DNA from: Coprothermobacter proteolyticus DSM 5265
Lineage (GTDB): Bacteria; Coprothermobacterota; Coprothermobacteria; Coprothermobacterales; Coprothermobacteraceae
Reading direction: 5' to 3'
Length of the DNA: 64,000 nucleotides
NCBI RefSeq assembly: GCF_000020945.1
Contig: NC_011295.1
Location: 558,001 to 622,000, forward strand
Shown: positions 28,258-33,014 of the stretch, one piece after another
Numbering within the stretch: position 1 is the stretch's first letter
Layout: each line of letters opens with the position of its first letter
The notes under the pieces: model-generated
Database searches by the model: none
Told to the model about the DNA's origin: nothing
Seen by the model: the letters and a program-made list of their open reading frames with translations, nothing else
Translations under genes and position numbers: made by a program

Positions 28258-28267
28258 GGTGACATTG

Positions 28268-29287
28268 ATGGAAAAGGGTAATATTTTAGAGATAAAGAAT
28301 CTTCAGGTTACGTTTTACACTGAGGACGGCATCGTACGTGCTCTACAAGGGGTTTCTTACGAAGTGCCTGATAACGAGACTTTGGGGGTCGTGGGGGAGT
28401 CCGGTTGTGGGAAATCTGTTACAGCACTGACTGTGATGCGTCTGCTTCCCAAGCCACAAGCTCGTGTAGAAGGTGGCGAAATCTGGTTCAAGGATAAGGA
28501 GACTGGACAAGAGATAAACATTCTCGAACAATCTGAAGAACACATGCGGCATATACGTGGTAACAAGATTTCAATGATCTTCCAGGAACCAATGACCGCG
28601 TTGAATCCAGTTTACACAGTGGGAGATCAGATCATGGAAGCTATTATGGTACACAATCCAGATATAAGCAAGAAAGAGGCTCGAGAACGCGCCATTGAAA
28701 TGCTCAAAGTGGTTGGTATACCAGCTCCTGAAAAGAGGGTGGATGACTATCCACACCAAATGTCGGGTGGTATGAGGCAGAGGGTTATGATAGCCATGGC
28801 TCTTTCCACTAATCCTGAAATACTCATTGCAGACGAGCCGACAACAGCACTAGACGTTACCATCCAAGCTCAGATTTTGGACCTAATGAATAGACTGCAG
28901 GAACAGTTTGGCATGAGCATTATTTTAATTACCCACAACCTGGGCGTGGTAGCTCAGAATGCTGATAGAATTGCTGTGATGTACTTGGGCCGCATAGTGG
29001 AAAAGGCAGCAGTTAGAGATATTTTCCACAATCCGAAACATCCTTACACCGAAGGATTGTTGGCCTCGGTTCCTCGTTTGGATAAGGGTGGACTAAAGGA
29101 ACATCTGCCAGGTATTACGGGTAACCTTCCTTCACCTTATAACCCACCGCCTGGATGTAAGTTCCATCCCAGATGTCCCTATGCGTTTGATAGATGCAGA
29201 GTTGAGGAACCACCTGAAGTGGAAGTGAGCCCAGGGCACATCGTTTGCTGCTGGCTCCACACGAAGGAGGAGACAAACCATGAGTAA
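28268..29287 (+). CDS. Peptide ABC transporter ATPase, DppD type
   Basis: A 339-residue ATPase. Walker [10 protein letters not shown]-loop [10 protein letters not shown], signature MSGGMRQR, Walker [13 protein letters not shown] and the C-terminal oligopeptide-type extension with [16 protein letters not shown] are all present. The cysteines in that extension often bind an iron-sulfur cluster or metal in this family. The ATG at 28268 is 7 bp after AGGT and preferred to a GTG at 28259. It hydrolyses ATP with DppF to drive import. Its 3' end overlaps dppF by 8 bp. Confidence 0.95.
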
Positions 29288-30251
29288 TAATGACATCCTG
29301 CTTGAAGTTCATGATCTGGTTAAGTGGTTCCCCATAAGGAGAGGACTGTTTGGTACTGTCCAGGGATACGTTAAGGCTGTGGACGGAGTGAGTTTTAATA
29401 TTAGGGCACACGAAACACTGGGTTTGGTAGGAGAAACAGGAAGTGGAAAAACAACCATTGGGCGCCTCGTGTTAAGGCTTATACCTCAGACCCGAGGGAA
29501 GGTTATTTTTGATGGCGTTGACATAACGGCTTTGGATTACAAGTCGTTTAGGCCCATGAAGAAAGACATGCAGATTATTTTCCAGGACCCTTATTCTTCT
29601 TTGAACCCGAGGATGACTATTGGAGAAATCATAGCAGAACCTCTCATCGTACACACGAATATGACAACTCAAGAGAGAGAGAAGAGGGTCTACGAACTCC
29701 TTGAGCTTGTTACACTGAGGCCTGAACATGCCAGAAGATATCCTCACGAGTTTAGTGGTGGACAGCGTCAGCGCATCGGTATTGCTCGCGCACTGGCACT
29801 GAACCCCAGATTCATTGTCGCCGACGAACCCATAAGTGCACTGGACGTTTCCATTCAAGCACAGATTACAAACTTGTTGATCGATTTGCAGAAAGAACTA
29901 GGGCTTTCCTTCTTGTTTATTGCTCACGACTTATCTGTAATTAAGCACATGTGCGACTCAGTGCTTGTTCTTTACTTGGGTAAAGTGATGGAATACGGTA
30001 GTAATGCAGACGTTTTCCAGCATTCGCGTCATCCATACACTCAGGCTTTGCTATCTGCGGTTCCTGTTCCCGATCCTGATTACAAACGAGAGCGTATCCT
30101 ATTGCAGGGAGAAATTCCTTCTCCAATTGATCCACCACCAGGGTGCGTGTTCCACACCCGTTGTCCCTATGCAACGGAAAAGTGCAGAACCGATAAGCCC
30201 GAGCTACGCGAGGTCGAGCCCGGGCATATGGTCGCCTGCCACTATGCCTAA
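29280..30251 (+). CDS. Peptide ABC transporter ATPase, DppF type
   Basis: A 323-residue ATPase, second of the pair. Walker A GETGSGKT, Q-loop FQDPYSSLNPR, signature FSGGQRQR, Walker B FIVADEPISALD and the C-terminal PGCVFHTRCPYATEKC extension are intact. The ATG follows gaaggagga inside the end of dppD. No substrate-binding protein gene lies in the operon, so the receptor must be encoded elsewhere. A terminator follows at 30270. Confidence 0.95.
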   Translation: MSNNDILLEVHDLVKWFPIRRGLFGTVQGYVKAVDGVSFNIRAHETLGLVGETGSGKTTIGRLVLRLIPQTRGKVIFDGVDITALDYKSFRPMKKDMQIIFQDPYSSLNPRMTIGEIIAEPLIVHTNMTTQEREKRVYELLELVTLRPEHARRYPHEFSGGQRQRIGIARALALNPRFIVADEPISALDVSIQAQITNLLIDLQKELGLSFLFIAHDLSVIKHMCDSVLVLYLGKVMEYGSNADVFQHSRHPYTQALLSAVPVPDPDYKRERILLQGEIPSPIDPPPGCVFHTRCPYATEKCRTDKPELREVEPGHMVACHYA

Positions 30252-30269: not shown

Positions 30270-30315
30270 AGGCACGTTCCTGAACGCTGAAAAATGGGGA
30301 CGTGCCTTTTTGTTT
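30270..30315 (+). terminator. Intrinsic terminator of the peptide transporter operon
   Basis: AGGCACGTTCC (30270-30280) pairs with GGGACGTGCCT (30297-30307), one G-U pair, followed by TTTTTGTTTT. It lies 18 bp after the dppF stop. Confidence 0.85.
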
Positions 30316-30366
30316 TGGTACGGAGTGTTATTTCATTGGCTTGCGTAGTTACATATATATATGGTC

Positions 30367-30438
30367 ATGAAGAAAGGCAAGGGGTTAAAATGCAAAGTAA
30401 GGGAAGTGATTCGATACTGTGATAGTGAACTTCATTGA
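30367..30438 (+). CDS. Possible 23-residue basic peptide, leaderless or leader ORF
   Basis: ATG at 30367 opens a 23-codon frame for a Lys/Arg-rich peptide with two Cys (MKKGKGLKCK ... YCDSELH), ending 20 bp inside the next gene. A TATATA run (30354-30359) lies 7 bp upstream, so a transcript could start next to it. It fills most of the 167-bp gap after dppF that is not used by the terminator. It may be a leader peptide for the next gene or chance; there is no ribosome site. Confidence 0.25.
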   Translation: MKKGKGLKCKVREVIRYCDSELH

Positions 30439-30943
30439 TTATTCCACGGCTTTATGGCCTGCCTTCGGCTGCACAGGGATCGTGCTTAACAATGATTTTC
30501 CATGGTGCAGACAGCTAACCTTTGGGCACGAAGTATTAAGTTTGCGGCGTGCAATGAACTTTATTAGAAAGAATGCTGATGCTGTGGGTGGCATAGTGCT
30601 GCTGGGGCAGGGAGAAGAGGTTGAACCGCTAACTTCCTTGGCTCGTGACCTTGTAAAGCCTATCCGCTGGGTTCTAGATAGCACTTCTCCATGTTCAGAA
30701 ATGGCTCTCGGTTTTAACAATGTTCTATTGATGTTCTCTGGAGAGTTGAATCCGGAATGGGAGCCCTTTAGTGGCAGGATAACCTTGGGCATTTGGAAAA
30801 GAGAGCATCTGGAAAAGGGGTTGGAAATTGCTTCTCAGCTTCAGCTACCGATGGAAACACCATTTGAAGTAAAAGGGACTAACTACCCCCGTGTGACTAC
30901 GTTTCAGTGGTTGTGGGGTTCACTTAGCTGTGAGAAATACTGA
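30419..30943 (+). CDS. Hypothetical protein, degenerate radical-SAM activase-like
   Basis: A 174-residue protein of unknown function. Its order of segments resembles anaerobic ribonucleotide-reductase activase (NrdG2-type) radical SAM proteins: FIDYSTALWPAFGC near the start (IDYPG...A..F..GC in the family), a helix, VGGIVLLGQGEEVEPL (family: DGVvisGGEPllq), and IRWVLDSTSP (family: vkLDTNGs.P). The CxxxCxxC cluster motif is absent, so it should not bind the 4Fe-4S cluster. This is pattern matching, not a search result. The GTG start at 30419 is weak. The 3' end overlaps the convergent lipA gene by 40 bp. Confidence 0.6.
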   Translation: MIVNFIDYSTALWPAFGCTGIVLNNDFPWCRQLTFGHEVLSLRRAMNFIRKNADAVGGIVLLGQGEEVEPLTSLARDLVKPIRWVLDSTSPCSEMALGFNNVLLMFSGELNPEWEPFSGRITLGIWKREHLEKGLEIASQLQLPMETPFEVKGTNYPRVTTFQWLWGSLSCEKY

Positions 30944-31779
30944 TCAGCAAGGTAAGACGATCTTACCATGGGGCCAGACACTACGGCTGGTATACCAAGG
31001 GATTGACCTATTTCTGAAAGCTGTTTAAACTCTTCTGGGGTATAGTACTTGTGTACGGGCCAATGCTTCTTTGATGGCTGCAAGTATTGACCAATAGTGA
31101 CAATGTCTACACCAGTGTTAAGTAGTTCTTCCAGCATATTCACTATGTCTTCCATGGATTCGCCCACACCAACCATGAAACCTGTTTTTGTTAGAAAGCC
31201 TTTACTTTTGAAGTATTTGAGCATGCTCAGTGAAACATCAAGATCTCCAGCGGGTCTGAGTTTTGGGAACAAAGGTCTTACCACTTCAACGTTATGAGCA
31301 AAGACATCTAACTGAGGTGTTATGAACGCCTTCCAATGCTCTTCATTTTTCTTGAAGTCAGGCACCAGCGCCTCTACTTTCGTATTTGGGTTAACCTTTT
31401 TAACCTCTTCAACCACTTGGCGGAAAAAGGCGCTCCCACCGTCCTCTAGATCGTCTCTGGTTACACTGGTCAACACAACGTATTTTAACCTGAGTCTTTT
31501 CACTGCTTCTGCGACACGCTGCGGTTCAGTTTCGTCTACTGGCATTGGCTTACCTGACTGTACATTGCAGTACAGACAGTGTCTTGTGCAAATACTTCCC
31601 ATGATTAGGAAGGTAGCCGTTCCATGGTTGAAACAAGTGCCAATATTGGGGCAGCGGCCTTCCACACAGATAGTATTTAGGCTCAATCCTTCAAGAGCCT
31701 GGCGCACACCTTTTGCGGTTTCACTGTCCTTTAGATTAGTTTTTATCCAAGCTGGTTTTCTTATCTGTTCATAGTCCAT
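30904..31779 (-). CDS. lipA: Lipoyl synthase
   Basis: A 291-residue radical SAM enzyme that inserts two sulfurs into octanoyl groups on lipoyl domains. The auxiliary cluster motif is C38-x4-C43-x5-C49 and the SAM cluster motif is C64-x3-C68-x2-C71; YVVLTSVTRDDLEDGG, HNVEVV and GMVGVGE-type segments follow. All cysteines are present and length is normal. The ATG lies only 6 bp after a TAGAAT box, so the mRNA appears leaderless. It is divergent from comFC and convergent with 30419. lipB is not in the window. Confidence 0.97.
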   Translation of the reverse strand: MDYEQIRKPAWIKTNLKDSETAKGVRQALEGLSLNTICVEGRCPNIGTCFNHGTATFLIMGSICTRHCLYCNVQSGKPMPVDETEPQRVAEAVKRLRLKYVVLTSVTRDDLEDGGSAFFRQVVEEVKKVNPNTKVEALVPDFKKNEEHWKAFITPQLDVFAHNVEVVRPLFPKLRPAGDLDVSLSMLKYFKSKGFLTKTGFMVGVGESMEDIVNMLEELLNTGVDIVTIGQYLQPSKKHWPVHKYYTPEEFKQLSEIGQSLGIPAVVSGPMVRSSYLADQYFSQLSEPHNH

Positions 31780-31831: not shown

Positions 31832-32413
31832 ATGTTTCCTGTGTTTTCATGGTATGCTGACTATGTCGATGAAGTCAGTAAGCCCTGGGTGATCCCTGAC
31901 CCAGATCCACGGGAGGTCACTTTTGGTAAATACACCGTTCATTATGCGTACTCTTATTACGGCCAAGTAAAATCTTTGGTGAAGCAGTGGAAGTTTCAGG
32001 GTGATCATGCTTTGGGTTTTAGGCTCGGCGAACTCATGGGGATTACCTACAATCATCTACTCTGCGGCAAGGTAGTCTCCTACGTTCCCCGTTACGGAGA
32101 AAGCTATCCCTATTTTGGCAATCACTTGTTTTCTTTTTTGGCAGGCCTTCAGAAGACTGGGAACTGCGCTGTAGTACCTGCTTACGTAAAAACACGGGCA
32201 ACCATGCCTCAAAAGACGCTGTCGCGGTCAGCGCGTATGGTAAACTTGCATGACGCATTTGTACCTACAGGAACATGCGCTGACATAGTGGTGGATGATG
32301 TTATGACTACGGGGGCTACGAGTCGAGTTTTGTATAAGTGCTCGCCGTTTAAAGTATGGCTGGTGCTGGCTCGAGTGGAGCTGGATTTGTCTTCAGATTT
32401 TCGTAAGGCATGA
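31832..32413 (+). CDS. comFC: ComF-family phosphoribosyltransferase-like protein
   Basis: A 193-residue ComFC-type protein. YYGQVKSLVKQWKFQGD, a TMPQKTLSRSARMVNLHDAF segment and the PRPP loop DIVVDDVMTTGAT match the family. The N-terminal zinc-finger CxxC pairs usual in ComFC are missing, so this is a short form. ComFC is needed for natural transformation in several bacteria, possibly after DNA enters the cytoplasm. Together with comEA and comEC it supports competence. It starts directly at the predicted transcription start and its stop codon abuts the -10 box of tRNA-Ser. Confidence 0.88.
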   Translation: MFPVFSWYADYVDEVSKPWVIPDPDPREVTFGKYTVHYAYSYYGQVKSLVKQWKFQGDHALGFRLGELMGITYNHLLCGKVVSYVPRYGESYPYFGNHLFSFLAGLQKTGNCAVVPAYVKTRATMPQKTLSRSARMVNLHDAFVPTGTCADIVVDDVMTTGATSRVLYKCSPFKVWLVLARVELDLSSDFRKA

Positions 32414-32433: not shown

Positions 32434-32527
<94 letters not shown>

Positions 32528-32679
32528 TTTTTGTTTTCTATGCAAACTCTTGAAATTCCCACTTCTTCACCAAGGCTACGTACTGTGGAGTATTCTAGTA
32601 TAGGATGGCGTTGTACTTTGGTGCCGTAAGCACTCATAGATCAGCCATGTTGTATAATTCATAAGTAGGTCATGTGAAT

Positions 32680-32705
32680 GATCGTGGTGTTTTATCATCA
32701 CGATC
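32680..32705 (+). repeat. Hairpin abutting the tRNA-Val promoter
   Basis: GATCGTGGTG and CATCACGATC form a 10-bp stem (one G-T) around TTTTAT, ending exactly one base before the TTGACA -35 box. The rest of the 223-bp gap 32526-32748 holds a consensus TATAAT at 32653-32658 without a clear -35 and no supported gene. Confidence 0.6.
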
Positions 32706-32735
32706 TTGACAAGGCTCATACCGCTGGGCTAAAAT
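32706..32735 (+). promoter_or_regulatory. Promoter of the tRNA-Val-Gly-Thr cluster
   Basis: TTGACA (perfect -35), 18 bp, TAAAAT, 13 bp before the first tRNA. A strong housekeeping promoter. Confidence 0.8.
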
Positions 32736-32748
32736 AGTAGAGGCTAAC

Positions 32749-32823
32749 GGGCGGTTAGCTCAGTGGTAGAGCGCTTGTTTCACACACAAGAGGTCAGAGG
32801 TTCGAATCCTCTACCGCCCACCA
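32749..32823 (+). tRNA. tRNA-Val(CAC)
   Basis: Acceptor GGGCGGT/ACCGCCC, discriminator A, CCA encoded. Anticodon stem CTTGT/ACAAG, loop TTCACAC, anticodon CAC. The T arm AGAGGTTCGAATCCTCT is intact. Confidence 0.97.
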
Positions 32824-32830
32824 AGAAAGT

Positions 32831-32905
32831 GCGGGAGTAGCTCAGTGGTAGAGCATCTGCTTGCCATGCAGAGGGTCGCGGGTTCGAATCCCGTCTCCCG
32901 CTCCA
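32831..32905 (+). tRNA. tRNA-Gly(GCC)
   Basis: Acceptor GCGGGAG/CTCCCGC, discriminator T, CCA encoded. Anticodon stem TCTGC/GCAGA, loop TTGCCAT, anticodon GCC. It follows tRNA-Val by 7 bp. Confidence 0.97.
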
Positions 32906-32939
32906 TTGTTTTTGTTCCCCAGTTGCACAGGGTGGATAG

Positions 32940-33014
32940 GCCGGCGTAGCTCAACGGCAGAGCAGCTGATTCGTAATCAGCAGGTTCCCAGTTCAAGTCT
33001 GGGCGCCGGCTCCA
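32940..33014 (+). tRNA. tRNA-Thr(CGT)
   Basis: Acceptor GCCGGCG/CGCCGGC, discriminator T, CCA encoded. Anticodon stem GCTGA/TCAGC, loop TTCGTAA, anticodon CGT. Last of the three-gene cluster; a T-rich tail follows. Confidence 0.97.

Follow-up and report, generated by a model that had tools for sequence, protein, structure and literature searches.

A Coprothermobacteraceae protein with N-terminal NrdG2 similarity and a depleted cluster loop: a possible non-radical derivative of a radical SAM activase

Can the barrel of a radical SAM activase be kept by a cell after the residues that hold its iron-sulfur cluster have gone? The question is raised by a short gene next to the lipoyl synthase gene lipA in Coprothermobacter proteolyticus DSM 5265, within the window analysed here (64,000 nucleotides, positions 558,001 to 622,000 of NC_011295.1). 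An initial annotation had read its product as a radical SAM activase fold of the NrdG2 type without the cluster cysteines. The gene, hereafter ORF, and its immediate surroundings are as follows:

30419..30943, + strand: gene of the 174-aa protein, with a GTG start, orthologues and purifying selection
30904..30943, no strand: 40-base tail-to-tail overlap of ORF and lipA (lipA at 30904-31779, - strand)
30270..30316, + strand: terminator-like inverted repeat and T run (aggcacgt...acgtgccttttt) between oppF and ORF, read from the sequence

The frame opens with GTG at 30419 and runs uninterrupted through 174 codons, as had been stated, and lies at 588 kb of the 1.42-Mb source genome (G000). Three orthologues were found, all in Coprothermobacteraceae genomes, at the same locus and of similar length, with 90, 52 and 49% identity in G002, G001 and G004 (the MAG Ch108), respectively; the nearest named relatives of the source organism are Coprothermobacter sp. 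UBA10526, C. platensis DSM 11748 and the Coprothermobacteraceae MAG Ch108. The other five Coprothermobacterota genomes (G003 among them, at only 68% completeness) and the remainder of the 386 genomes searched yielded no homologue, and the viral contigs, phages and plasmids searched yielded no relative. Between G000 and G002, ORF showed a dN of 0.049 and a dS of 0.243, that is, a sense-frame dN/dS of 0.20, while the corresponding dN and dS pairs of its neighbours were 0.025 and 0.189 (lipA), 0.024 and 0.257 (comF) and 0.019 and 0.325 (oppF). The antisense frames gave dN/dS values of about 0.7, about 2.6 and about 0.26, a control that is only partly informative because the third value is close to that of the sense frame. 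ORF is thus under purifying selection, weaker than that on its neighbours, and the earlier view of a gene that is maintained and not decaying was borne out.

The gene order oppF, ORF, lipA, with a comF-like gene beyond, is the same in G002, G001 and G004. ORF and lipA adjoin tail to tail and overlap in all four genomes, with a shorter overlap in C. platensis and Ch108; the two genes are convergent and not co-transcribed. The hairpin at 30270-30316 lies 3' of oppF and about 100 bases before the ORF start codon; it is missing from the pattern-scan output, its loop exceeding the 8-base limit of the scan. Hairpins occur at the matching place in the three relatives. Those of C. platensis (L003 1432-1500) and Ch108 (L004 1432-1488) are strong, terminator-like and end no more than about 20 bases from the start codon, so that there is little space for a promoter before the gene. 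A candidate leader peptide at 30390 was dropped, as a second genome has ATG TGA there. Further along the window, the ComF-like protein (31832-32413) scored 26-28 bits against ComF/GntX cut-offs of 234-304, and its N-terminus has no obvious zinc-finger segment; four tRNA genes are clustered on the + strand at 32434-33011, flanked by the comF-like gene and a gene resembling that of arginyl-tRNA synthetase.

We then asked what family the protein belongs to. Searches of Pfam, NCBIfam, PHROGs, PADLOC and PDB sequences returned nothing significant for ORF. The NrdG2 HMM (TIGR02495) matched none of the four family members at E ≤ 10, leaving its cut-off of 131 bits unreached, and pairwise BLAST between ORF and the genome's own NrdG2 gave nothing significant. 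This lack of a significant family match fits a protein of another origin, namely an alpha/beta protein peculiar to this lineage and without kinship to radical SAM enzymes, in which the first helix and second strand would resemble NrdG2 by convergence and the partial barrel, or other alternating fold, could serve a ligand of its own.

A profile built from the four ORF members was compared with one built from 29 collected NrdG2 proteins, and the two matched over 77 columns, corresponding to ORF residues 2-78, with a score of 32.0 (P 3.6e-4). The reversed profile scored 11.7, and none of 200 column shuffles reached the observed score (mean 14.0, sd 2.6, max 27.2). Removing the Coprothermobacterota sequences from the NrdG2 profile left the match in place (32.7, P 2.8e-4), as did leaving out each ORF member in turn (P 1.8e-4 to 8.9e-4) and masking C30 (P 5.7e-4). 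The initial annotation had named the NrdG and PFL-activase families for a profile search; the NrdG2 match lends the former moderate support, for the N-terminal half only, and PFL-activase profiles showed no match to the ORF family. A HisA/HisF profile, used as an unrelated barrel control, showed none either. The LipA control was weak, being made from one lipA sequence only.

The similarity is confined to one half of the protein. Columns 1-95 alone gave a P of 6.9e-5, with 0 of 100 shuffles reaching the score; columns 1-60 alone scored no more than 17.1, a value that 5 of 100 shuffles reached, and columns 60-177 and 95-177 scored no better than shuffles against NrdG2. Placed on the gene, the matching segments are:

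30443..30463, + strand: residues 9-15 (S-T-A-L-W-P-A), aligned by the profiles with NrdG2 SLIDYPG; S9, L12, W13 and P14 are invariant in the four members
30500..30511, + strand: residues 28-31 (P-W-C-R), aligned with NrdG2 CPYCH at the third cluster cysteine; W29, C30 and R31 are invariant
30536..30613, + strand: residues 40-65 (LSxRRAxxFxRxNAD...GxVxxGxG), which make up helix 1 and strand 2 and account for the bulk of the NrdG2 similarity

The concentration of the signal in one half, and mostly in one helix-strand segment, could be the product of convergence. Against convergence, the match falls on the cysteine of the cluster loop, shuffled profiles never reach the score, and the register is common to most NrdG2 proteins. 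The last point comes from a comparison with single sequences, where the register was mostly shared around the third cysteine and where, among 582 proteins, the 27 NrdG2 sequences ranked as a group above 516 others (AUC 0.76); the p-value of this test overstates the evidence because the proteins are related to each other. Its top single-sequence matches, from L024, L026, L007 and L027, were discounted, as these loci had been chosen for weak resemblance to the query.

Decoys for the profile comparison were drawn from the window, from the collected loci and from eight stretches of two relatives. When the profiles of 58 window genes were compared with NrdG2, ORF came first (33.4), followed by OppD (31.7), OppF (31.1), MurG (27.3) and LipA (27.1). 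That OppD and OppF come near the observed score again speaks for a convergent resemblance. The scores of these two proteins (window 28259-30251) arise from 22 and 13 columns in cysteine-rich C-terminal stretches, a source of false matches.

Cluster cysteines define radical SAM proteins, and the GGE motif contacts SAM. No CxxxCxxC motif occurs anywhere in the 174-aa frame. When its three positions were followed through the profile alignment, the first cysteine fell in a gap, the second was F, S or Y, and the third was C30, the sole invariant cysteine in the four members. On this alignment the claim that the cluster cysteines had been lost is right for two of the three, and the position of the third is kept. 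The GGE motif of NrdG2 is replaced by GxG in the ORF family. Many positions are invariant in helix 1 and the turn that follows (LSxRRAxxFxRxNAD).

The NrdG2 resemblance itself, as aligned here, sits elsewhere than had been proposed, because the motifs quoted earlier vary among relatives and one of them is out of register. "GQGEEVEPL" reads GNGSEAATL in C. platensis, while Ch108 has GYGTTALTL, only GxG and L71 being constant; "VLDSTSP" becomes VLGAEQE in one relative and VVDAGDP in another; Ch108 has S in place of the C in "GC"; and "IDY" is displaced, as NrdG2 SLIDYPG pairs with S9-xx-LWP(A/S/G) of ORF. The central idea, an NrdG2-type relationship with loss of the cluster loop, is moderately supported, while most of the residues cited for it did not hold up and the roles proposed with it lack support.

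Structure prediction was carried out with AlphaFold2 in two runs whose alignments differed only in the first member. With the window protein first, the prediction was poor (pLDDT 38.8), and a structure search made with a model of that run (pLDDT 39) was disregarded. With Ch108 first, one model reached a pLDDT of 77.8 and a pTM of 0.78, the other four staying at pLDDT 35-42, and its use as support amounts to a choice among two runs. In this model strands and helices alternate, which suggests a partial beta-alpha barrel without proving its kind. Searched against a viral structure library, it had a radical SAM protein at rank 1 (E 1.2e-3, probability 1.00, TMq 0.49), and among the best 25 were a PFL-activating enzyme (TMq 0.55, E 0.078) and several further entries for radical SAM proteins or Fe-S oxidoreductases; the radical SAM matches partly reflect which barrels are common in that library. 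No radical SAM protein was among the 50 PDB matches listed; these were asparaginase, IMPDH, deaminases and assorted TIM-barrel and other folds, with E ≥ 0.013. The radical SAM activase fold first proposed has in its favour a partial-barrel model and a viral-library match, but both come from a single confident model out of five, in one run of the two, and the PDB list is devoid of such proteins. The mixed folds among the PDB matches suit an unrelated alpha/beta protein, and the viral structure search favours a radical SAM origin. With the evidence on both sides, we consider a convergent alpha/beta protein a serious possibility, though rather a doubtful one.

The reading that we prefer is that ORF encodes a Coprothermobacteraceae-specific protein that derives from a radical SAM activase of the NrdG2 type, is itself non-radical and acts as a binding or regulatory protein, and for this full statement our judgement is evenly poised. 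Descent from an NrdG2-type barrel is, taken by itself, the likelier case. From such an ancestor the protein would still have the beta-alpha core of the N-terminal half and a cysteine at the third position, and it would have lost two cluster ligands and the SAM-contacting GGE. NrdG requires a [4Fe-4S] cluster and AdoMet (PMC12662201). Since all four members lack GGE and two cluster cysteines, these known requirements speak against radical chemistry: a canonical [4Fe-4S] cluster and the usual mode of SAM binding would not be expected, and the protein would probably make no radicals. The old barrel, with its strongly conserved helix-1 surface (LSxRRAxxFxRxNAD), may instead hold a protein or a small ligand. 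This putative binding role is favoured because helix 1 and the following turn hold so many invariant positions.

One partner to consider is the class III ribonucleotide reductase, as the initial annotation had suggested: ORF could be a decoy or inhibitor that docks, activase-like, on NrdD or NrdG without activating. The NrdG2 resemblance and the presence of NrdD and NrdG2 in G000, G001 and G002 agree with this. However, neither NrdD nor NrdG2 was detected in Ch108, whose genome is 95% complete and keeps ORF, and for this reason a dedicated partnership with the enzyme is disfavoured, although the incompleteness of that genome calls for some caution; moreover, nrdD and nrdG2 of G000 stand side by side at 5-8 kb (NrdG2 at about 7 kb), far from ORF at 588 kb. 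We therefore regard this role as very unlikely.

Still less likely, in our estimate, is a partnership with lipoyl synthase, the other role that had been put forward. The two genes do adjoin in all four genomes with overlapping tails, so the linkage anticipated earlier exists, but it says little because synteny extends over most of the 64 kb (in G001 and G004, the corresponding stretches contain counterparts of most genes in the window), the two genes are convergent, and lipA is present without ORF in the Coprothermobacterota genomes G005, G006 and G008. That the protein is a radical SAM enzyme whose non-canonical cluster is bound by the invariant C30 and other ligands is the most improbable reading of all, as no other cysteine is invariant and the SAM-binding GGE has gone too.

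Returning to a non-radical NrdG2 derivative, its broadest form would be that an entire family of bacteria has kept the barrel of a radical SAM activase without the cluster and SAM motifs, and uses it for something new and non-radical that has no link to ribonucleotide reductase; we advance this tentatively, our judgement falling slightly under even. If true, it would mean that a radical SAM barrel can be kept for non-radical use and maintained for long without its cluster cysteines, and the culturable Coprothermobacter would offer a small test case. A narrow search of open-access full text turned up no account of an NrdG-like protein without cysteines, which does not establish that there is none.

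Among known systems, LipA (TIGR00510) is the adjacent gene's product and itself a radical SAM protein; unlike ORF it retains its cysteines, and the two share no detectable similarity. PFL activating enzyme (TIGR02493) is represented, by a viral member, among the structure matches of the ORF model, but there is no profile-profile match and its motifs are absent from ORF. NrdG2 (TIGR02495) differs in having the complete CxxxCxxC, of which ORF lacks two cysteines, in having GGE, in its length (about 230 aa against 174), in a C-terminal half that finds no match in ORF, and in its place beside nrdD. Yet it is NrdG2 whose profile ORF resembles over its N-terminal 80-90 or so residues, with the shared S..(L/D)(W/Y)P, with PWCR on PYCH and FLRxNAD..GVVxxG on FLKxRxx.LDGVVITGGE, and with a predicted alternation of strands and helices.
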